Shown one piece after another: positions 1,291 to 43,692 of a stretch of DNA of 64,000 bases. Numbering within the stretch: position 1 is the stretch's first letter; every line of letters starts with the position of its first letter. The stretch comes from Onchidella celtica (Eukaryota; Mollusca; Gastropoda; Systellommatophora; Onchidiidae): assembly GCA_963931925.1 (NCBI GenBank), contig OZ007582.1:38440617-38504616 (forward strand), in the 5' to 3' direction. The notes under the pieces were generated by a model that searched no databases, was not told the DNA's origin, and saw only the letters and a list, made by a program, of their open reading frames with translations. Both the position numbers and the translations under genes were made by a program.

Positions 1291-3339
1291 ATTTAATTTT
1301 TCCCGCTCCTTGTCAACTCTCCCATCCTTATTTGATTCAGGGTTATAATTCTAATTAGCAAAATTGCAACATTCTGTTACTAATGAAAATGAAACTTCAA
1401 AATCCATCGCTGATGTTGTCTCCAGCGTGGGCTTAATGTTTTGAAGAAGTACGGAAGAGAGGAAAAAAGAAATTTTCCTCATCAAACAAAAAAGTTTCCA
1501 CTTCACAAAATGATAATATTGTGGGATAAAATATTAGTTACTTTCTTTGTTTTCTCCATTTCAAACCATGAGATGATAAACAGCAAGAACACGCTACAAC
1601 GAATGCCAAAGTGTCTGCATTATTCGCCTCACACTCAGCAGCCTCTACTTTGTTTACATCATTACTGCGTATGTGTGACTGAGTTTCTCACAGTGTCAAG
1701 TCGCTGGGATTGGCTGACACAAGTTCTGTGCATGTGTAATGACAATTTTTGTTACAGCGGTAAGTGGCAATTGATGCATATTAAGGGGTAGGTATAATTA
1801 CTATAAATTTTGTTCATGCATATCAATTAAATTTGAGTTTTACACCTAGGTGACCATAAGCACTACTAAGCAGATGCCATGATGCAAAACTGGCGGATTT
1901 ACACCAAGTTCATGCATACAGTAACTGATATGTGCTGACTCAATGAATGAGGATATCCTTTGTCTAGCCAGTGCCTTAAAAAAATTCCAACTTTTTTCAG
2001 GCGTACTATGAAAAAGCGACATGCACTGCCACAGCCGGTGTTTCCATCTAGAATCCAGGCCTCACTTGGCTGTATGGGTTGCCTTGAAACAGAATTTTAT
2101 TCCTTCAATCAACCAGAAATTAAAAGTGGGCATTACATAAAATACAAGCTATCTATGTATGTGTGAATTTTTATGTGTAAGCTTCTTAAAACTTACATGT
2201 GAAGATTCATTCCGTTTTCTTACAATGCAGTCACAAGCGACCGCCAGATGGGACTTTGCTTTGTTCCAGTTTGGCCAAATAATGTTAATTATTTTAGTAA
2301 ACACCAACCAAACTACGACCGATACACTTTTTTCTGGTACAGCTGGATAAAGAATATGTTGTAAAACATTCTAAGAACTACACTTGAAAATCTATTGTTC
2401 AGTTGGCATCAAAATTATTCTAATAGTAAACTTTGAAAAAAATAAAGAGTTAATGTTACTTGACCCCTGTAGAAACTAGAACACAAAATGATTCAAAATA
2501 CTTTGATCACTTACAAGAAGGAAAGGTGATCCACTGCATTTATCACATTTTATCATTTGTGAACATTAGTGAAACCTGGCGTCATATGGCTGGGTGGGCT
2601 CCATGTGTTCATCTTTTCAAAGCCTTGTAACAGAATGTTATTTTCTTAATCAATCAGAAATTAAAACTGTGCATTAAATAAGATGCATGCTATCTACATG
2701 TGAGAATTCATGTATGCAAGTTTCATAGAACTTGTGCACGAAGATTCAAAGAGGTGATACTTAGGCTATTCCCTTTTCTTAAGGTACACCCACAAGTGAT
2801 AGGCAGACAGGATTACACTTTGTTCTGGTTGCAAATGGTGCTAACTAATTTAGTAAACACCGCACAAAGGATATGTTGTAAAATATTCTAAAAACTACAC
2901 TTGAAAATGTTTGGCAAAGATGACATCAAATTATACTATTTAATGGATCTTTTAAAAAAATAAAGAGTTAAGGTTACTTGACCACATTACAAACTAGAAC
3001 ATCAAAATGATTCAAAATACTTTGATCACTTACATTTACATCATGATAATCTGTGCTTTTAATGTACTGTGCATTCTTTTGAAACAACTACACTGCCATC
3101 ACAGCACCACAAGAATTAGGATGGGAAGAGTTCTGGACGTTCAGACCACCCAGTCAATCCCTAAAGCTAACCCTAAATCAAATTCTAATCTGTCTTTATC
3201 CCTGTTACCAATCACTGACCCTACAGTTTACTCTTTTAATCACAAACAAAAAGAAATAAGAATTGTAAGAGTTCAAAGACATCAGGAACTCATCAGGAAA
3301 TCTAGACCTAGATCCTACTGAAAATCAAGCTAAGCTTAG

Positions 3340-9543: not shown

Positions 9544-10309
9544 TTAAACGAATATATGGTCACTTTCAAATGAATCATTCACTTTGATTGTCCTGCGACA
9601 GATATTTGAACCCTGATTCACTTCATTTGTCAGGTGACAGGTACCTTTTACTTCATTTGTCAGGTGACAAGTATCTTTTACTTCATTTGTCAGGTGACAA
9701 CTATCTTTTATTTCATTTGTCAAGTAACAAGTATCTGTACTTCCACTTACTTCATTTGTCAGGTGACAAGTATCTGTACTTCCACTTACTTCATTTGTCA
9801 AGTGAAAAGTATCTGTACCTTCAATCATTTCATTTGACAGGTGACAGATAACATTCCTTGGTACACTTTTTCTGTTACGAGGTTTGCCTGGAATAGTCCG
9901 TGTATCTGTAACCTTATCCAGAGGAGTCTGAGTGTCTGTAGCTTCATTCACTTCATCTGTCAGGTGACAGGTATCCTTAGCTCTCCTTGACAAATTTTGG
10001 CATGGAGTTTTCTGACATTTTTTCATGTCTTCAGGAAATGAGAAAACAGATGGTACAACATTGTGATTTATTATACAATTGAAATCCACAGTCATCATAA
10101 TCAGATGGCAGGAAATGATCACAGCAAATAAATGAAAAATTTGTAGGAATAAAATCCTTTCGTCTGACAGCTCTGATGCATTTCTCATGAAGGACTGGCT
10201 CTTTTGGAAACTGATGAAATGTGAGATCATCTGCTTTGGTCTCTGCTGACTTACTCCTAGGCTTGTGCCTATTTGTACATGCAATTAATGCTGCTCAGCT
10301 GTTCACCAT
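9544..10309 (-). pseudogene. THAP-type zinc-finger protein with repeat tail, A1 copy, broken
   Basis: Read on the minus strand from an ATG at 10307-10309. The first 70 codons are THAP-like: second zinc cysteine in ACTNRHKPRSK, then DDLTFHQFPKEP, the core RAVRRKDF, and the Cys-x2-His pair in FICCDHF. After GFQ a frameshift moves the rest into the next frame, which resumes with NVVPSVFSFPEDM, equivalent to the conserved end of a THAP domain. It then runs into repeats of DTCHLTNEV. The codon for the first zinc cysteine is TGA (10295-10297). The upstream splice acceptor, intact in A2 (CTCTCTTTCCTCAG), has lost its AG here. THAP domains are C2CH DNA-binding modules of nuclear factors and P-element-like transposases. 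The usual Trp of the core helix is Cys here. Confidence 0.75.
9600..9860 (-). repeat. 30/48-bp tandem repeat encoding DTCHLTNEV units
   Basis: Units built on CATTTGTCAGGTGACAAGTATCT recur at 30-bp spacing (9620-9740) and 48-bp spacing (9740-9850). Both are multiples of three, so the minus-strand frame stays open and reads as 10- or 16-residue repeats (DTCHLTNEVK, DTCHLTNEVSGSTDT). The core TGTCAGGTGACA is a near palindrome (TGTCA/TGACA). A more degenerate run extends to about 9975. Confidence 0.85.
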
Positions 10310-34931: not shown

Positions 34932-35261
34932 TTATTTACATTTTTTTAAAAGATCACTAAGTCTTTTTTGTTTCTTTTTAGCTTTCTTCACTTCTTGCTG
35001 CTTCACTTTGAGTTTTCTCTGAAGAGATTTTACTTGTAGTTCAAGGTCCTCAATGGTTTTTGTTTGCTTCACTGCCTTGGCACTGGTTTCATTTAAAACG
35101 TATGTCTGGTCATTTTCAAATGAATCATTTACTTTGTTTGTCCTGCCACAATCTGTACCCTCATGTGACAAGTATCTTTAACTTCAGTTGTCGCGTGACA
35201 GGTATATATGATCTGTACTTTCGCTCCCTTCATTGGTCAGGTGATAGATATCAATACCTTC
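34932..35261 (-). pseudogene. THAP-type gene, A2 copy: coiled-coil end and part of repeat array
   Basis: Downstream part of the A2 THAP-type gene, cut off from the rest by the LTR element at 35262. The frame from 35171 contains KVNDSFENDQTYVL, then a heptad-rich region (KTIEDLELQVKSLQRKLK, KKAKKKQKRLSDLL) ending in a stop at 34932. THAP proteins commonly carry a basic coiled coil downstream of the zinc finger. A donor-like GTAAATAAG overlaps the stop, so the original exon may have spliced on. Repeat units (TTGTCGCGTGACAGGTAT, TTGGTCAGGTGATAGAT) occupy 35165-35261. Confidence 0.6.
35257..35261. repeat. Target site duplication CCTTC (left)
   Basis: CCTTC immediately precedes the TGTCAC end of the LTR and is repeated at 43662-43666. 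Confidence 0.9.
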
Positions 35262-36453
35262 TGTCACAAATCCCAGACTGGGAGATGTAATAAGTATGAC
35301 AGGACAACAATCACGAACAAACAAGTTTAACACTTAACAGAACAACCCATCAGACTCACACATTTATTAAACATAATTATACATATAATAGCGCAATTAC
35401 ATACATTATATTATTGGAATGACTGCCGTACAACGGCCTTATTCTCACACACACTCTCCCTCGGATCCACAATCCGGTAGTTACTCCTAAAGGCACTTCG
35501 GCCTCAGCCTCTCCCCTCAGGGTCTTAATAGCCCATTAATAAATTACTGGCACCGCAGTCTCTCAATATCACCTTCCTATTGTCATACACCTTAGCACTC
35601 CCCTAGCACCTCAGCAGGGCAATAACACATTATTATTTCCATAGCCATCAACATGGCAGCAACATAGTATCAGTCACTAGCCTATCAACATGGCAACAAT
35701 ATAGTATCTCATTCACTCTCATATCTACGTCCCTGTCCGTGGCCTGACTGCCACGACTTTATGTGCCTCTACTGTCCTACACTGACAGCCTCACTTCTGG
35801 CCTATGTGTGGCCTCCGGCCCTATGCTGGCCTATCCCCTGTGCTCATCGAGGTGGCTCTTCGGCCCGTCCCCGACACCTACAAGAATAACATTACATTGG
35901 TATAATACCCTACCATTTCTATTCACTCCACCTCTCCTTACAATCCATGAAGCGTACACACACTAGTTCACCTTTCACTCACCACACATCTTACGGTAAC
36001 ACACTTCCATCGGAGTACACACTACTCACTCGCGCTACAAATCCATGAACTCACTTTCATCTATCGCTCGTGGCGCACATTGCTATATCCAATATCAAGG
36101 ACTTCCACATTCCTCACATACTTATTTACATCATGGTAATAGACGAATATAATATAATACATCAATCATAATAATCAATCAACGTTCTACATACCAGTCA
36201 TAACTGGAAAGACTCTCACCAGTCTTCTCGACTGCTTCCCCTTTATGTCCGCCCGATGGGCTTTTATTCACAGGTCCGATCCCTAGGACCTTCTAACTTG
36301 CAGTGATAGTATTACCGCTCTTTCGCCTCCTTCAGACCCCGCCCCCACTACTACTCACAACAGCACGCTTAACTTGCTGTCTACTGTGAGCCTTTCTTAC
36401 TCTACACCCGCTCTGTAGCAATCCCCTTAATTGCACTCACTCCACTCGTGACA
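35262..36453 (-). repeat. 3' LTR, 1192 bp
   Basis: Begins TGTCAC and ends GTGACA, a 6-bp inverted repeat. It differs from the other LTR at about three positions by eye: 36220 (C here, T there), the CGCTCTTTCG/CGCGCTTTCG change near 36325, and GCAATCCCC/GCAACCCCC near 36422. A minus-strand AATAAA (plus TTTATT at about 35363) lies roughly 100 bp from the 3' boundary, suiting a polyadenylation signal. The frame at 35763-35966 lies within the LTR and is identical in both copies for that reason only. Confidence 0.95.
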
Positions 36454-36467
36454 TCATCCCCCACCCC
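36454..36467 (-). promoter_or_regulatory. Polypurine tract
   Basis: On the minus strand GGGGTGGGGGATGA, preceded by a T-run, abuts the 3' LTR directly. This is the expected place for the plus-strand DNA primer of an LTR retroelement. Confidence 0.85.
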
Positions 36468-36809
36468 AAAAAAATTAATGCAATTAATTTCAAATCGCAT
36501 CAAGATGACTGTCAACGAGTGAGCGTGAGCAATACCTACACTAAAAAAACTGACCTAGCAGTTCCCCTAGTATATAAAATACCGAAATCAGGGGAAAATA
36601 TGGGGATCAATATGGCCTGAAATATGCATATATGTGTCACATCATGAATAGCTAACTAACCACAATACTTAATACAGAATCAAAAACCACTCAACCTATC
36701 AACCATCCTTCATATCATATTTATAATGTCAATATTTTAAAGTCGACTCATTCACACAGATCCTGTCAATGTTCCTGTCCTCTGATGTATAAGCTCCTGA
36801 AATCTTGCC
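36468..36809 (-). other. Element 3' non-coding region
   Basis: About 340 bp lie between the gag-pol stop and the polypurine tract. No env-like or accessory frame is present. Confidence 0.6.
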
Positions 36810-39800
36810 CTAGGCTCGACTAAGGTAGTCGGCGATATGATTGCTGGTTCCTGGAATTGGTTGAATAACGAAGGTATACGGCTGCAAAGCCAATGCCCAC
36901 CTAGACAAGCGTGGGCTGGACGAACGATTCTTCGACAAAAATGTCAGTGGCTTGTGGTCCGTCTGGATACAAAATTCTCGTCCCATGAGATAACGTCCTA
37001 GTTTCTGGACGGACCAGACAATGGCAAGACACTCACGCTCTATCACAGAATACTTTCTTTCTCTCTGCAATAACTTCCTACTGACATAACATACAGGGTG
37101 GAGACATTCGTTCTTCTCCTGTAGAAGACAAGCGCCGACACGAGAGTCCGACGCATCCGTTCTGAGGATAAAATTAGATCGAAAATCGGGTAATATCAGA
37201 ATGGGTGACGATGATAATGCTGTCACCAAATTATCAAATGCTGTCTGACATTCAGACGTCCACTGGACCTTATCGGGTTGTCCCTTCTTAGTAAGGTCAG
37301 TAAGAGAAGATGACAAGGAGGAAAAATTTGGAATGAACTTTCTATAATAATTTAAAATCCCGACTAAGCTTCTGACTTGTTTCTTTGTTTTAGGGATTTG
37401 CAACCCTACTAACTTGTCAATTTTTGTTTCTTCAGGTCTCTGAACACCTCTACCCACAATATGTCCTAAGAATACTATCTCTGGACATGCCAAATCCATC
37501 TTTGCGGGTTTAGCAGTTAGCCCAAACTGGCGTAATCGTTGAAAAATTACTGTTAGTGTCTGAATATGATCAGACCATGTCGACGTATGGCATGCTATAT
37601 CGTCAAAGAATGACACGACATTAGGTATGTCCTTCAACACTAATCTCATTAATCGTGCAAACGTCGCTGGTGCGTTTACCAACCCAAATGGCATGACCTT
37701 AAATTGGAATAATCCAATGGGCGTTTGGAACGCCGTGTATTGTTTAGACTCCTCAGTAAGCGGGATTTCCCAATAACCTTTCGTTAAATCTATCTTGGAA
37801 AACCACGTGGACCCGGCCAATGAAGCTATTAATTCCTCCTGAAACGGAATAGGCTCCCTATCGCCTACCGTAATAGTGTTCAATCTTCGAAAATCAATAC
37901 AGAACCGCACCGATCCATCAAGTTTCTTCACGAGGACGATGGGTGATGAATACGGCGATGTTGATGGTTCTATCACATCTAACTTCAACATTGACTCAAC
38001 TTCCTTTATGACCCTATCCCTCGACGAAAAAGGCAACGGATACGGTCTAAGAAATACTGGCTTATCCGAAGTCAACTTTATTTGGTGCTGGATCACCGTA
38101 GTGCGACCCGGCAAATCCGTAACAACATCCGGAAATGACGCTAACAGGGTCTCAAGTTCCCTACTCCTTGAACTCGTAAGGTCAGGGTTAATTTTTACGT
38201 CCCTGTAACCTTGTGTCGCAGTTAACTCCGGCAATTGAATTTGTAACTCCTCCTGCGCCTCGGTGTCGCTTACGTCACAGTCCAACTGGTCTACGACCCC
38301 CGTACAAGCGGTAGAGAAGACAGTCTCCTTTGGTCTTGTCTGTGCACACAGATACTGTGGTCTCTCATAAAATCTCTGTAGCATATTAACATGGAAAACC
38401 TTACTCGCTCCATCAATGTGGATAGCGTAATCTACCTTTGAAACAACTCGCTCAATAACATAAGGACCTTTCCATGTCATCAATAACTTATTATGGTCCG
38501 TAGGTAACAACAACAGAACCTTGTCTCCTGGCTTAAAAATTCTCAGTTTGGAACCTCTATCTTTATAGTCTTTTGCTCTTTTCGAAGCGATACTAGACGC
38601 TTCTTCTGCTATAGTGCGCGCTGAAGATAGTCTTTCTCTTAAATCAACAAGGTACTGAAACACCGAAATCTGCTCATCGTCTCCCGATGATGGCGACGTC
38701 ATCATGTCCCGAAGAACATCAGTTGGGCCCCTGGGACTACGACCGTACATCATTTCGAACGGCGAGAATCCCGTTGACTCCTGCCGTACCTCTCTGTACG
38801 CGAATAACACCGCAGGGATATATCTATCCCAATCTTTAGGGCGATCCGCAGCTACCTTACGCAGCATCGACTTTAACGTCGAGTTCAATCTCTCGCACAT
38901 GCCATTAGCCTGCGGATGATAAGGGGTGGTAGTGATGGGTTGTATACTGAATAAGCGGAACAATTCCTTCATCATCTGCGACGTAAATTGCGCGCCCCTA
39001 TCAGACAGAATTTGCTCTGGTATTCCTACCCTAGCGAAAATTGCAAACAACGCTTCCGCGACTGCCTCAGACGTTATGGTCCGCAGAGGAACCGCCTCTG
39101 GCCATCTCGTAGCATTACATATGACCGTCAAGAAAAATCGATTCCCCCTATCGGTCGCTGGGTGAATGGGGCCAACAAGGTCTATCGAGACCTTTTTAAA
39201 CGGTTCCGAGACCGTGGGGATCTTCTGAAGAGGGGCCTGGGGTGTACGACCCTTATGCGTCGTCTTTTGGCACGCACTGCACGTCTTACAATAGACCTGC
39301 ACATCTCTGTGGATCGATGGCCAGTAAAAATTTTTAAGAACCCTTTCTTTGGTTCTAGCTATCCCCATATGACCCGCTAATGGGACATCATGTGCCAAAT
39401 GCAATACTGTTGCGATCAGCAACGCTGGCACAACGACCTGCTTTAAAATGGAGGACACCGTTACATACTTACGGAACAGAATGCCCGCCTGAACAAAAAA
39501 AGAAGATGACCCGTTCTTATATCTCCTCGTTTTCTCGGTTCGCGCTTCCCCAAAACATGGGTTTAATGATGGGTCCTCCCTTTGTAATCTCGCCAAGCGC
39601 TCTGGCGTGATATCTAGGTTGACCGCTGGCGTAGCCAAAGGTCTAATCTTATCTTTATCGGCTACCCGTCGGCGTGTTTCGACCGCGGCGCAAAAGTCAA
39701 TACCTTTTGATTGCGACCATGCTTGCACGTTCTCATCGGAAGGGGAAACGACCCGTGATACATTCCCAATGATGAGCTGGGCGCCTGGAAAACAACCAAC

Positions 39801-41549
39801 GACTGCTTCGACTTCCCCGCTAAGGAAAGGTGTATCTATCATTATTCTTGCCATGGGTAATTTCTCAATGGCCCCCGAAAATTGGATGCACGGGACAGTC
39901 TCACCTGTAAGCTGTGAATCCCGAATGCAGTCTCTATGCACTCCCACAACGGTAGATCCCGTATCTCGTAAAACCGAGACCGGTTCGTCCCCAACAAACC
40001 CCGGATAAACCCTAAGACCACCTCCTGTATGACATGAATTTATGATGGGGATCTTTCTCCCACAAGGTAAAACACCGGAAGATAATAACTTCTCACAACT
40101 GGGACACTTAGAATACTGTCCGCCTCCGTTGTCCGATGTAACACACGCAGCCGCATGATGAAATTTATTTGGGGAACATGGACTGGAGCTACTGTCCACG
40201 TTCGCCGCTATCCTACCTGCAGGGCAGTTCACGCTGATGTGATCTGCTCTTCCGCAGTTCCAACACTTCGCGGCCCTACACTCGCGCGAAAAGTGACCCA
40301 CGCGTCCGCAAGTCCAACACTCCGCTCCCTGTGCTGCCCTAGGCCTGGGTCTCCGTGACCCCTCGCGACCGGAACTAGAGTCCCTATGCCGTCGGTCATC
40401 GGCAAAGGTCACAACTCGCCCCCGGCCATTACCGCGACCTAGCCCTCCTGCTCGGTCAAACTTACCGGATCCATATGCCGGTGATTGGTGATAGCCCCTA
40501 CGCTGCCCCTGGGCTTGCCCGCTATAGGCACCACGCTGACGCGACCTGTCCCTAAGTCCTGCCGGCGACCCCTCGACAACGGCGACGTACCCCGCATCTT
40601 GGACGTACGCCCTGGCGACTGGTTTGGACGGATGTGCCGTACGGTATGCCTCCGCCAACTTAGACGCCTCCTGCACCGTCGCGGGCTCGTTCTCTTTCAG
40701 GAAAGCCACCAGATCTTTGTGGCACGACGCGTACAGCTGGTCACGGATCATTAGGTCTTTTAGTTTAGCAAAATCCGTGCCCACATGCGCCAGGTCTACC
40801 CAGTTCGCGAAATACTCCGTTAGTCTCGCGACGAAGGCAGCAAAGTCCTCCCTGGTGTCTGCACGTGCTCGCCTAAACTGCTCCCGGAAATATTCCTCGG
40901 TACGCGCAAATCGGCGAAGCAGCAAAGCCTTCAGCTTATCGTAATCTTGCACGTCTTCGCGCTGTAGCTCTTTAAAGTATGTTAACGCTCGCCCCTGCAA
41001 TAGCGACGCCAGGTACGTGGCCCATAATTCCTTATTTTCCCCCCATTGCAATTGTGCGTTCAGCTCGAACCTGTAAAGGAAGGCGTCTATGTCGTCCTTC
41101 CGGTCGTCGAACGTAGGGAGCTTAATCCGAACACCACCTTTATTGTGTACCTGCCGCTCAACTGTTTCTGTTGGCGCATTCTTATTGATTTCCAACTCGG
41201 CGATTCTTATTCGCGCCTCTCTCTCCTGTTGCTTATCCCTAGCCTCTATCTCCCGCTCTTGGGCTTCTATCTCCCTTAACTTTAACTCCCTCTCCTGCTC
41301 CTGAGCCTTAGCCTCTCTTTCCTGTTGCTTAGCCTCTAACTCCTTTAACTTAAACTCTCTTTCCTCTTCCTTATCCTTAGCCTCTCTTTCCTCTTCTCTC
41401 TGTCGCTCTTGAGCCTCTTTTTCTCGCTCTCTATCCTTAGCACGCTCATCGCGCAAATCCGCCTGTTGTTCTTTAATCCAGCCGCGTAGCTCCTCTCCCT
41501 CCAGGCCAAGTTCCTTACCCAACTTCATTAGTTGTTGGAGTTCCGCCAT
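36810..41549 (-). CDS. gag-pol: Gag-Pol polyprotein, 1579 aa, order Gag-PR-IN-RT-RH
   Basis: One uninterrupted frame supplies the structural protein and all enzymes for replication. The ATG at 41547-41549 is the first of the frame. Residues about 28-118 form a charged E/K/R/Q coiled coil. A capsid-like gag domain covers about 140-330, then an Arg/Gly-rich stretch. Two CCHC knuckles (CWTCGRVGHFSREC, CWNCGRADHISVNC) lie near 410-445. Protease DTGS is at about 529. The integrase HHCC finger (HLAHD...CKTCSAC) is at about 716-757, with catalytic Asp about 789, Asp about 849 and Glu about 885 (D,D35E), and a GPY/F module (WKGPYVIERV) near 1026. Reverse transcriptase runs about 1150-1330: VRFCIDFRRLN near 1214, MPFGLVNAP near 1283, FFDD near 1315. 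RNase H has Asp about 1464 (TDASD) and TDHKPLTF near 1530, ending in ADYLSRA. There is no chromodomain and no gag/pol frameshift or stop. Residue positions are approximate, derived from coordinates. Confidence 0.97.
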   Translation of the reverse strand: MAELQQLMKLGKELGLEGEELRGWIKEQQADLRDERAKDREREKEAQERQREEEREAKDKEEEREFKLKELEAKQQEREAKAQEQERELKLREIEAQEREIEARDKQQEREARIRIAELEINKNAPTETVERQVHNKGGVRIKLPTFDDRKDDIDAFLYRFELNAQLQWGENKELWATYLASLLQGRALTYFKELQREDVQDYDKLKALLLRRFARTEEYFREQFRRARADTREDFAAFVARLTEYFANWVDLAHVGTDFAKLKDLMIRDQLYASCHKDLVAFLKENEPATVQEASKLAEAYRTAHPSKPVARAYVQDAGYVAVVEGSPAGLRDRSRQRGAYSGQAQGQRRGYHQSPAYGSGKFDRAGGLGRGNGRGRVVTFADDRRHRDSSSGREGSRRPRPRAAQGAECWTCGRVGHFSRECRAAKCWNCGRADHISVNCPAGRIAANVDSSSSPCSPNKFHHAAACVTSDNGGGQYSKCPSCEKLLSSGVLPCGRKIPIINSCHTGGGLRVYPGFVGDEPVSVLRDTGSTVVGVHRDCIRDSQLTGETVPCIQFSGAIEKLPMARIMIDTPFLSGEVEAVVGCFPGAQLIIGNVSRVVSPSDENVQAWSQSKGIDFCAAVETRRRVADKDKIRPLATPAVNLDITPERLARLQREDPSLNPCFGEARTEKTRRYKNGSSSFFVQAGILFRKYVTVSSILKQVVVPALLIATVLHLAHDVPLAGHMGIARTKERVLKNFYWPSIHRDVQVYCKTCSACQKTTHKGRTPQAPLQKIPTVSEPFKKVSIDLVGPIHPATDRGNRFFLTVICNATRWPEAVPLRTITSEAVAEALFAIFARVGIPEQILSDRGAQFTSQMMKELFRLFSIQPITTTPYHPQANGMCERLNSTLKSMLRKVAADRPKDWDRYIPAVLFAYREVRQESTGFSPFEMMYGRSPRGPTDVLRDMMTSPSSGDDEQISVFQYLVDLRERLSSARTIAEEASSIASKRAKDYKDRGSKLRIFKPGDKVLLLLPTDHNKLLMTWKGPYVIERVVSKVDYAIHIDGASKVFHVNMLQRFYERPQYLCAQTRPKETVFSTACTGVVDQLDCDVSDTEAQEELQIQLPELTATQGYRDVKINPDLTSSRSRELETLLASFPDVVTDLPGRTTVIQHQIKLTSDKPVFLRPYPLPFSSRDRVIKEVESMLKLDVIEPSTSPYSSPIVLVKKLDGSVRFCIDFRRLNTITVGDREPIPFQEELIASLAGSTWFSKIDLTKGYWEIPLTEESKQYTAFQTPIGLFQFKVMPFGLVNAPATFARLMRLVLKDIPNVVSFFDDIACHTSTWSDHIQTLTVIFQRLRQFGLTAKPAKMDLACPEIVFLGHIVGRGVQRPEETKIDKLVGLQIPKTKKQVRSLVGILNYYRKFIPNFSSLSSSLTDLTKKGQPDKVQWTSECQTAFDNLVTALSSSPILILPDFRSNFILRTDASDSRVGACLLQEKNECLHPVCYVSRKLLQRERKYSVIERECLAIVWSVQKLGRYLMGREFCIQTDHKPLTFLSKNRSSSPRLSRWALALQPYTFVIQPIPGTSNHIADYLSRA

Positions 41550-42455
41550 TTCACAGATTTATGGTTATGGTATCTATTATGCGAACGACCAACCTGTCGG
41601 TATGATCACTAACGATACGACCAGAGACCTGAGATCACACCAGATATAACAATACCCAGTTCAGAATACAATTCAGAAATTTACCTTTACAGCACAACTA
41701 CTTCTATATCTACAAAATGTATAGCACTATTAATTATAAAAAGAATAGAAAAGACAAGAATAAGGAAATTTAGTAGAAAGACCACAAGGACGTCAAGGAC
41801 AACGAACCAGACTAGGACAAAGCTTCTACAAAAAAAAACTATAATGGAAAAAAGAATGCAACCTAACTACGCCGATTACACTACACGGTACAACAAGAAC
41901 AGAGTCTGAAAAAAAAGAACGTATCTACAGATAGGGAAGAAAGAGGGACAAGAGAATACGTCTTCCTGCCGAACAGAGAAGATATCGACGCTACAACTAA
42001 ACAAAAATACAGGTCCCTACAGAACTGTTCACTGTGGTGAACGCGGTTCCAAGTTTAGCCCACCTCCCGAAGAGGATAAACTACGCTCACCACAGCAAAC
42101 CCGCGCCACCGCCCGTATAACCTATAACGACAACAACAGCAAAAACAGGGAAACAGACAGATGAAGAGACAGCCCTTAATCCAGGGCACAAAATTTTCAC
42201 TTAACTTTTGAAATTTTGAGTAAAACCTCTCCCTTCAATCGGAGCTCTGGCTGCTCGTCTCCTCAGGCTGCACGCACACACTCTGGAAAGTTTAAATACA
42301 CATTAATACCTATTCATAGCAATATATGCATCAATATACATTCATTAATATACATAAATCATATCATGAAATGTCCATTCATCCAACGAACAAGACAGCA
42401 CAAATACCTACTAACTAACTACAACTAAATATTACGAAAATGGACGAGTCACAAT
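41550..42455 (-). other. Element 5' leader
   Basis: About 900 bp lie between primer binding site and start codon, A-rich on the plus strand (T-rich in the sense direction). The only plus-strand frame (42216-42428) has no support. ATGGACGAG occurs twice in direct order at about 42439 and 42454 on the plus strand. The leader would hold any packaging signal, but none can be pointed to. Confidence 0.6.
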
Positions 42456-42468
42456 GGACGAGCCCCCA
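42456..42468 (-). promoter_or_regulatory. Primer binding site, tRNA-Pro type
   Basis: One base inside the 5' LTR, the minus strand reads TGGGGGCTCGTCC. This equals the first 13 bases of the 18-nt tRNA-Pro primer site known from murine leukaemia virus; the following bases (ATTGT) no longer match. It lies at the correct place and orientation for minus-strand DNA priming. Confidence 0.85.
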
Positions 42469-42469
42469 A

Positions 42470-43661
42470 TGTCACAAATCCCAGACTGGGAGATGTAATA
42501 AGTATGACAGGACAACAATCACGAACAAACAAGTTTAACACTTAACAGAACAACCCATCAGACTCACACATTTATTAAACATAATTATACATATAATAGC
42601 GCAATTACATACATTATATTATTGGAATGACTGCCGTACAACGGCCTTATTCTCACACACACTCTCCCTCGGATCCACAATCCGGTAGTTACTCCTAAAG
42701 GCACTTCGGCCTCAGCCTCTCCCCTCAGGGTCTTAATAGCCCATTAATAAATTACTGGCACCGCAGTCTCTCAATATCACCTTCCTATTGTCATACACCT
42801 TAGCACTCCCCTAGCACCTCAGCAGGGCAATAACACATTATTATTTCCATAGCCATCAACATGGCAGCAACATAGTATCAGTCACTAGCCTATCAACATG
42901 GCAACAATATAGTATCTCATTCACTCTCATATCTACGTCCCTGTCCGTGGCCTGACTGCCACGACTTTATGTGCCTCTACTGTCCTACACTGACAGCCTC
43001 ACTTCTGGCCTATGTGTGGCCTCCGGCCCTATGCTGGCCTATCCCCTGTGCTCATCGAGGTGGCTCTTCGGCCCGTCCCCGACACCTACAAGAATAACAT
43101 TACATTGGTATAATACCCTACCATTTCTATTCACTCCACCTCTCCTTACAATCCATGAAGCGTACACACACTAGTTCACCTTTCACTCACCACACATCTT
43201 ACGGTAACACACTTCCATCGGAGTACACACTACTCACTCGCGCTACAAATCCATGAACTCACTTTCATCTATCGCTCGTGGCGCACATTGCTATATCCAA
43301 TATCAAGGACTTCCACATTCCTCACATACTTATTTACATCATGGTAATAGACGAATATAATATAATACATCAATCATAATAATCAATCAACGTTCTACAT
43401 ACCAGTCATAACTGGAAAGACTCTCACTAGTCTTCTCGACTGCTTCCCCTTTATGTCCGCCCGATGGGCTTTTATTCACAGGTCCGATCCCTAGGACCTT
43501 CTAACTTGCAGTGATAGTATTACCGCGCTTTCGCCTCCTTCAGACCCCGCCCCCACTACTACTCACAACAGCACGCTTAACTTGCTGTCTACTGTGAGCC
43601 TTTCTTACTCTACACCCGCTCTGTAGCAACCCCCTTAATTGCACTCACTCCACTCGTGACA
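42470..43661 (-). repeat. 5' LTR, 1192 bp
   Basis: Same length and TGTCAC...GTGACA ends as the 3' LTR, with about three mismatches. By position it holds the element's promoter. No TATA box can be assigned with confidence, although TATAATATAATAC-like sequence lies at about 43356. Confidence 0.95.
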
Positions 43662-43666
43662 CCTTC
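43662..43666. repeat. Target site duplication CCTTC (right)
   Basis: CCTTC directly follows GTGACA, matching 35257-35261. Five base pairs is usual for Ty3/gypsy integrases. Confidence 0.9.
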
Positions 43667-43692
43667 ATTCATTTCATTTGTCAGGTGACAGA

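Follow-up and report, generated by a model that had tools for sequence, protein, structure and literature searches.

The window analyzed here, a 64,000-nucleotide stretch of the Onchidella celtica genome, carries on its minus strand a single uninterrupted open reading frame (ORF; 36810..41549) that encodes a 1579-aa protein with Gag, protease (PR), integrase (IN), reverse transcriptase (RT), and RNase H (RH) parts in this order. Gag includes a charged N-terminal region (residues 1–140; 41130..41549), which is probably a coiled coil as read from the sequence, a SCAN-like capsid part (residues 219–306; 40632..40895; PF02023, 31.1 bits against a cut-off of 27), and two CCHC zinc knuckles (residues 411–442; 40224..40319; two stretches matching Pfam zf-CCHC, with the motif). 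The putative aspartic protease (approximately residues 505–620; 39690..40037) was assigned from its DTGS motif at residue 529 and its conservation in relatives and not from Pfam, where Asp_protease_2 stayed below the cut-off (E 0.17). Integrase consists of an H2C2 zinc-binding domain (residues 707–764; 39258..39431; PF17921 Integrase_H2C2, 67.8 bits; motif inside residues 720–760), a catalytic core (residues 782–899; 38853..39206; PF00665 rve profile over residues 782–879, 46.6 bits) with the triad D790, D850, and E886, in which 35 residues separate the second D and E, and a GPY/F, SH3-like C-terminal domain (residues 1016–1060; 38370..38504; WKGPY at 1026), which was placed by alignment to Ty3 integrase and a sub-cut-off match of the SH3 profile PF24626; the SH3 profile PF22938 and rve_3 also matched below the cut-off. 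Reverse transcriptase (residues 1207–1365, FFDD at 1314; 37455..37931) was identified by PF00078 RVT_1 (104.8 bits) and by alignment to Ty3, and RNase H (residues 1455–1558; 36876..37187; motifs at 1464–1530) by PF17917 and PF17919, whose profiles span residues 1430–1558 with 116 and 122 bits. The motif positions of an earlier sequence-only reading (DTGS, H2C2, triad, GPY/F, FFDD, and RNase H) thus hold within one to a few residues. Rfam and tRNA scans of the 64-kb window found nothing.

The ORF lies in an element at 35262–43661 that is bounded by two 1192-bp LTRs, the 5′ LTR at 42470..43661 and the 3′ LTR at 35262..36453, both on the minus strand with the ends TGTCAC...GTGACA and differing at 3 of 1192 positions (0.25%). 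The target site duplication (TSD) CCTTC is found on the 5′ side at 43662..43666 and on the 3′ side at 35257..35261, and its length of 5 bp is also that of Ty3; TG..CA LTR ends and a short TSD are general features of LTR elements. Directly after the 5′ LTR comes TTGGGGGCTCGTCC, with the primer-binding site TGGGGGCTCGTCC (42456..42468, minus strand) complementary to what we take to be the 3′ end of tRNA-Pro, and the polypurine tract GGGGTGGGGGATGA (36454..36467, minus strand) directly precedes the 3′ LTR; both sites recur in other copies of the element. The near-identical LTRs, the TSD, the primer-binding site, and the polypurine tract indicate that the insertion is intact and recent, and together with the intact ORF they bear out the initial description of this copy as complete. 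The sequence-only reading had named neither these flanking features nor the SCAN-type Gag.

The order of enzymes is not the ordinary Ty3/gypsy order with integrase last. Ty3 (PDB 7q5b) was the best solved-structure relative and matched both halves of the protein, its RT-RH (583–1009) aligning to residues 1152–1579 and its IN (1088–1449) to residues 704–1065, so that the two blocks are swapped in a clean permutation. The two elements share homologous IN, RT, and RNase H and a CCHC Gag, whereas integrase follows RNase H in Ty3, unlike in the window element. The order of Pfam domains, the motifs, and the swapped Ty3 alignment therefore confirmed a Ty3/gypsy-type element with integrase before reverse transcriptase.

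Copies with RT before IN, which the sequence-only reading had named as a sign of local rearrangement, were looked for in the same genome (1.14 Gb in 43 contigs). All of the 30 best-scored copies among 97815 candidates, the window's own included, were integrase-first and co-linear with the window protein over residues 1–1579 at 98–100% identity in a protein search, and 29 were without a stop, although this selection of the best copies says nothing on decayed ones. A further copy, on C11, has LTRs of 1195 bp and the duplication GTTCT. The same pattern held for more distant elements of this genome, with IN before RT at 8/8 further integrase loci that were hand-chosen among the top H2C2 matches (of 12725 candidates, 150 were scored), including two loci (L039 and L042) where the RT frame is broken. 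Three integrase-first elements (L038, L043, and L044) have separate Gag (432–469 aa) and Pol (1066–1069 aa) frames, compared to the single frame of the window element. A PF00078 search of the genome retrieved mostly non-gypsy RTs, and gypsy-type RT was found in three of the 20 loci fetched; in L011 and L020 it is preceded by an IN piece, and in L026 none was seen. L011 also carries two isolated integrase fragments (~1486–3145), both in minus orientation and located downstream of the integrase-first element.

Among database proteins, IN preceded RT in all 120 listed relatives (the best 120 of 4724 significant matches, with 8000 candidates scored and the window protein used as the seed of the domain searches), which were 47–64% identical to it over IN-RT, and no RT-first close relative was among the matches listed. 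The query and these relatives (n = 121) showed the architectures CA-PR-IN-RT-RH (97), CA-IN-RT-RH (1), PR-IN-RT-RH (16), and IN-RT-RH (7), and 98 of them contained a homologue of the SCAN-like capsid part of the window element. All organisms named among the listed relatives were molluscs or echinoderms (including Haliotis, Pecten, Ylistrum, Crassostrea, Littorina, Patiria, and Strongylocentrotus), and a sea-urchin protein (P0066) was among those with the integrase-first order. As controls, we examined 120 Ty3-like proteins, where RT came first in 118 (117 with RT-RH-IN, and P0164 with the RT-RH-IN unit twice) and the other two, both short, were without IN, and another family of the same genome, in which 49/49 RT–IN pairs were RT-first. 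These pairs (same strand, within 3.5 kb) were 381–384 bp apart, mostly in 1318/1319-aa frames, and were drawn with Ty3 queries from the best 98 RT matches of 14530 candidates and the best 113 IN matches of 12946, with 49/98 RT and 64/113 IN matches unpaired among those listed. The ordinary order was recovered in both controls, and the domain caller can therefore find RT-first elements.

Separate RT-RH and IN trees, proposed earlier as a test that could refute the reading, agreed with each other. Both recovered a clade of the window element and two relatives (P0001+P0002+P0003) with support of 0.993 (RT) and 0.96 (IN), and a P0001–P0007 clade with 0.953 (RT) and 0.999 (IN). Inside the three-member clade, RT paired P0001 with P0002 (0.792) and IN paired P0001 with P0003 (0.089, unsupported); no supported breakpoint between IN and RT was seen in the separate RT-RH and IN trees. 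RT and IN distances were correlated over all pairs (Spearman 0.87), and the correlation was lower when the window element was compared with all others (0.60), which speaks against the reading. When 51 RT-first sequences were added (50 of them drawn at random from 113 usable proteins of the 120 Ty3-like ones), 0/51 fell inside the 129 integrase-first sequences in either tree, with named Gmr1 elements and RT-first clades of animals (Mag and CsRN1, for example) lying outside the set covered. This split between RT-first and integrase-first sequences is weak evidence, because local support at the node of the whole integrase-first set was low (0.50 and 0.55) and because the RT-first proteins had been selected for their resemblance to Ty3, which builds the split in to some degree.

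The source cited for the integrase-first order of the Gmr1 clade is Goodwin and Poulter 2002. According to passages of four papers (PMC8220671, PMC6238403, PMC3587641, PMC2774666), the gypsy elements of the Gmr1 type have IN placed upstream of RT or an order like that of copia, and Gmr1-clade elements are mentioned there from crustaceans (PMC3587641) and an annelid (PMC8220671). In the relevant section of a study of Tetraodontiformes, fish Gmr elements have a single gag-pol ORF of 1506–1634 aa and LTRs of 337–518 bp (PMC11117352); the window element likewise has one gag-pol ORF, while its LTRs are longer (1192 bp), which counts against membership. An excerpt of a frog genome study reports Gmr elements and a SCAN domain in >50% of them and in Gmr elements only, and part of a review derives the SCAN domain from a Gmr1-like Gag. 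A mollusc survey lists 21 gypsy clades, including Cigr-1 and 16 MolGy clades, with Gmr1 unnamed in the section covered. Of the features of the Gmr1 clade, the window element shows gypsy-type IN and RT, the PR-IN-RT-RH order with IN upstream of RT, and a SCAN-type capsid in Gag. The profile of the SCAN domain of vertebrate zinc-finger proteins (PF02023) matches Gag residues 219–306, and this stretch would be a capsid segment and not a transcription-factor domain in the window element.

If the element belonged to Ty1/copia, its order would be normal, and the PR-IN-RT-RH arrangement itself is in favor of this reading, as IN before RT is common to both. The same order is stated for Ty1/copia in a passage of PMC6238403. 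The enzymes of the window element are of gypsy type instead, with an RVT_1 RT, a gypsy-type RNase H, and an H2C2 integrase; the Pfam search reported no copia-type RT (RVT_2) in the 1579-aa protein, Ty3 is the best solved relative for both halves, and none of 46 genomic matches to copia-type RT lies inside the element. We rejected membership in Ty1/copia on account of the gypsy-type enzymes and the absence of reported RVT_2, and its probability is vanishingly small. A local rearrangement or chimera, in which the integrase of an ordinary gypsy element was moved before RT in the window copy or in this species, is favored by the presence of ordinary RT-first Ty3-like elements in the same genome, and it was rejected as highly improbable because the integrase-first copies, the integrase-first relatives, and the agreement of the RT and IN phylogenies all contradict it. 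Judging from these comparisons, the order is inherited by the lineage and is not a rearrangement of the window copy, because own-genome copies, listed relatives, and both trees agree.

The order might also have arisen independently in an integrase-first gypsy lineage apart from Gmr1, a reading favored by the makeup of the comparison, in which the listed relatives were unnamed or mollusc and echinoderm proteins. It is set against the SCAN-like capsid homologue that accompanies the order in most of these proteins, the restriction of SCAN to Gmr elements in the frog excerpt, and the sea-urchin relative of the same order, and we consider it very unlikely. We are highly confident that the element at 35262–43661 belongs to the Gmr1 clade of Ty3/gypsy and that it is an LTR retrotransposon which is complete and was inserted recently. 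Its placement in the clade would follow from the order, the SCAN-type Gag, and kinship with mollusc, echinoderm, and unnamed proteins, the named Gmr1 (cod) sequence and that of Cigr-1, which presumably groups with Gmr1, standing outside the comparison. The integrase-first order is genuine and is shared by related elements of other animals, molluscs and echinoderms among them, so the element adds a new member to the Gmr1 clade. The initial suggestion of a possible new member of the Gmr1 group is therefore supported by the order, the SCAN-type Gag, and the integrase-first relatives, and the accompanying view of this group as small is not, as all of the best 120 relatives share the order; the Gmr1 clade is not small. 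Integrase-first gypsy elements thus represent a large lineage with young copies that coexist with RT-first elements in one genome, and because both orders coexist there, it becomes possible to compare within a single host how domain order affects replication.

If the element works as Ty3 and retroviruses do, it would make a single Gag-PR-IN-RT-RH polyprotein that is cut by its own protease, and Gag with its SCAN-type capsid would pack the RNA. The element RNA would then be primed by tRNA-Pro and copied into double-stranded DNA, which the gypsy-type integrase would insert with a 5-bp stagger, giving the 5-bp target duplication. The change of order should matter little if the polyprotein is cut into separate enzymes, and we infer that the element may be active at present.

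The use of tRNA-Pro as primer is strongly suggested by putative tRNA-Pro tails in truncated copies. A pattern covering the 3′ end of tRNA-Pro and the initial C of CCA was found at 33 places in the genome (reversed control, 0), and an exact 33-mer of the tRNA-Pro 3′ end ending in CCA at 25 places (control, 0). We read eight of the 33 places (L046–L053), six of which were among the 25, and all eight showed other sequence followed by the tRNA-Pro 3′ part ending in CCA, with exact tRNA matches of 25, 39, 37, 37, 39, 40, 40, and 29 nt, where the 29-nt match stops at a mismatch. The initial expectation that the tails were tRNA genes was rejected, as neither ARAGORN nor Rfam identified one at any of the eight places read. 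After CCA, L046 and L048 have a single base before a clear LTR end (matches over 31 bases, at 97% and 90%), the stretches of L049–L053 are cut off 2–4 bases later with those bases agreeing with the LTR end, and L047 has TGTAACA and then unlike sequence. In 7/8 places, the sequence joined to the tail was internal element sequence with seven different break points between 36889 and 42196 of the window, the match in L053 being short (E 1.6e-4), and the flank of L047 showed no mapping to the element. Most tails end near tRNA position 37, and the tail of L046 ends earlier.

The tRNA numbering and base modifications used here are those assumed for animal tRNA-Pro. On the simplest reading, plus-strand DNA would run past modified base 58 of the primer and mostly halt near modified base 37, the over-long plus strand could not make a normal second strand transfer, and it would land elsewhere inside the element, leading to internally deleted copies. 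We see about an even chance that the integrase-first elements here record such a failed step of their own replication, namely a failed second-strand transfer; this estimate is slightly reduced by the LTR end being clear at just two of the eight places. For HIV-1, a review counts the stop at modified base 37 among the minor products, one unable to act as an active template, and it gives m1G37 for E. coli tRNA-Pro (PMC13191261). A rival reading of the tails is that a 3′ tRNA half acted as primer or template. If confirmed, the tRNA-tailed truncated copies would make it possible to follow primer use and failed strand transfer in genome sequence.

Copies of the window element's family were also found in tandem. 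One array (G000:C5:40873000-40903400, L029–L033) consists of four head-to-tail copies 6910 bp apart, with three identical inter-copy segments of 2179 bp that each contain a single 846-bp LTR; one TSD, TTCAG, surrounds the whole array, and the outer 5′ LTR differs at 1 position from the inner LTRs. Three further copies lie 7238 and 7239 bp apart at C10:15921328-15940520, as seen from coordinates only. Such arrays seem common in this genome, and assembly error is the alternative that might account for them; similar arrays are reported from plants in the abstract of PMC11899658. Evenly spaced integrase matches of other elements were also observed at C13:23550441 (7, spacing 8108), C7:59369283 (4, 7890), C1:118319426 (4, 7877), and C1:100051869 (3, 7731), and likewise in the RT-first family at C11:52020882 (four integrase matches, spacing 8016).

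The window element is inserted beside copies of a 16-bp motif, chosen by eye from the flanks, which has 13 matches in the window at ≤2 mismatches (~1 expected), eight of them at 9622–9967. A diverged short repeat TCACCTGACAAATGAA (HLTNEV in a minus frame) was observed at 9622–9967, 35183–35244, and 43673–43688 of the window, beside the insertion.
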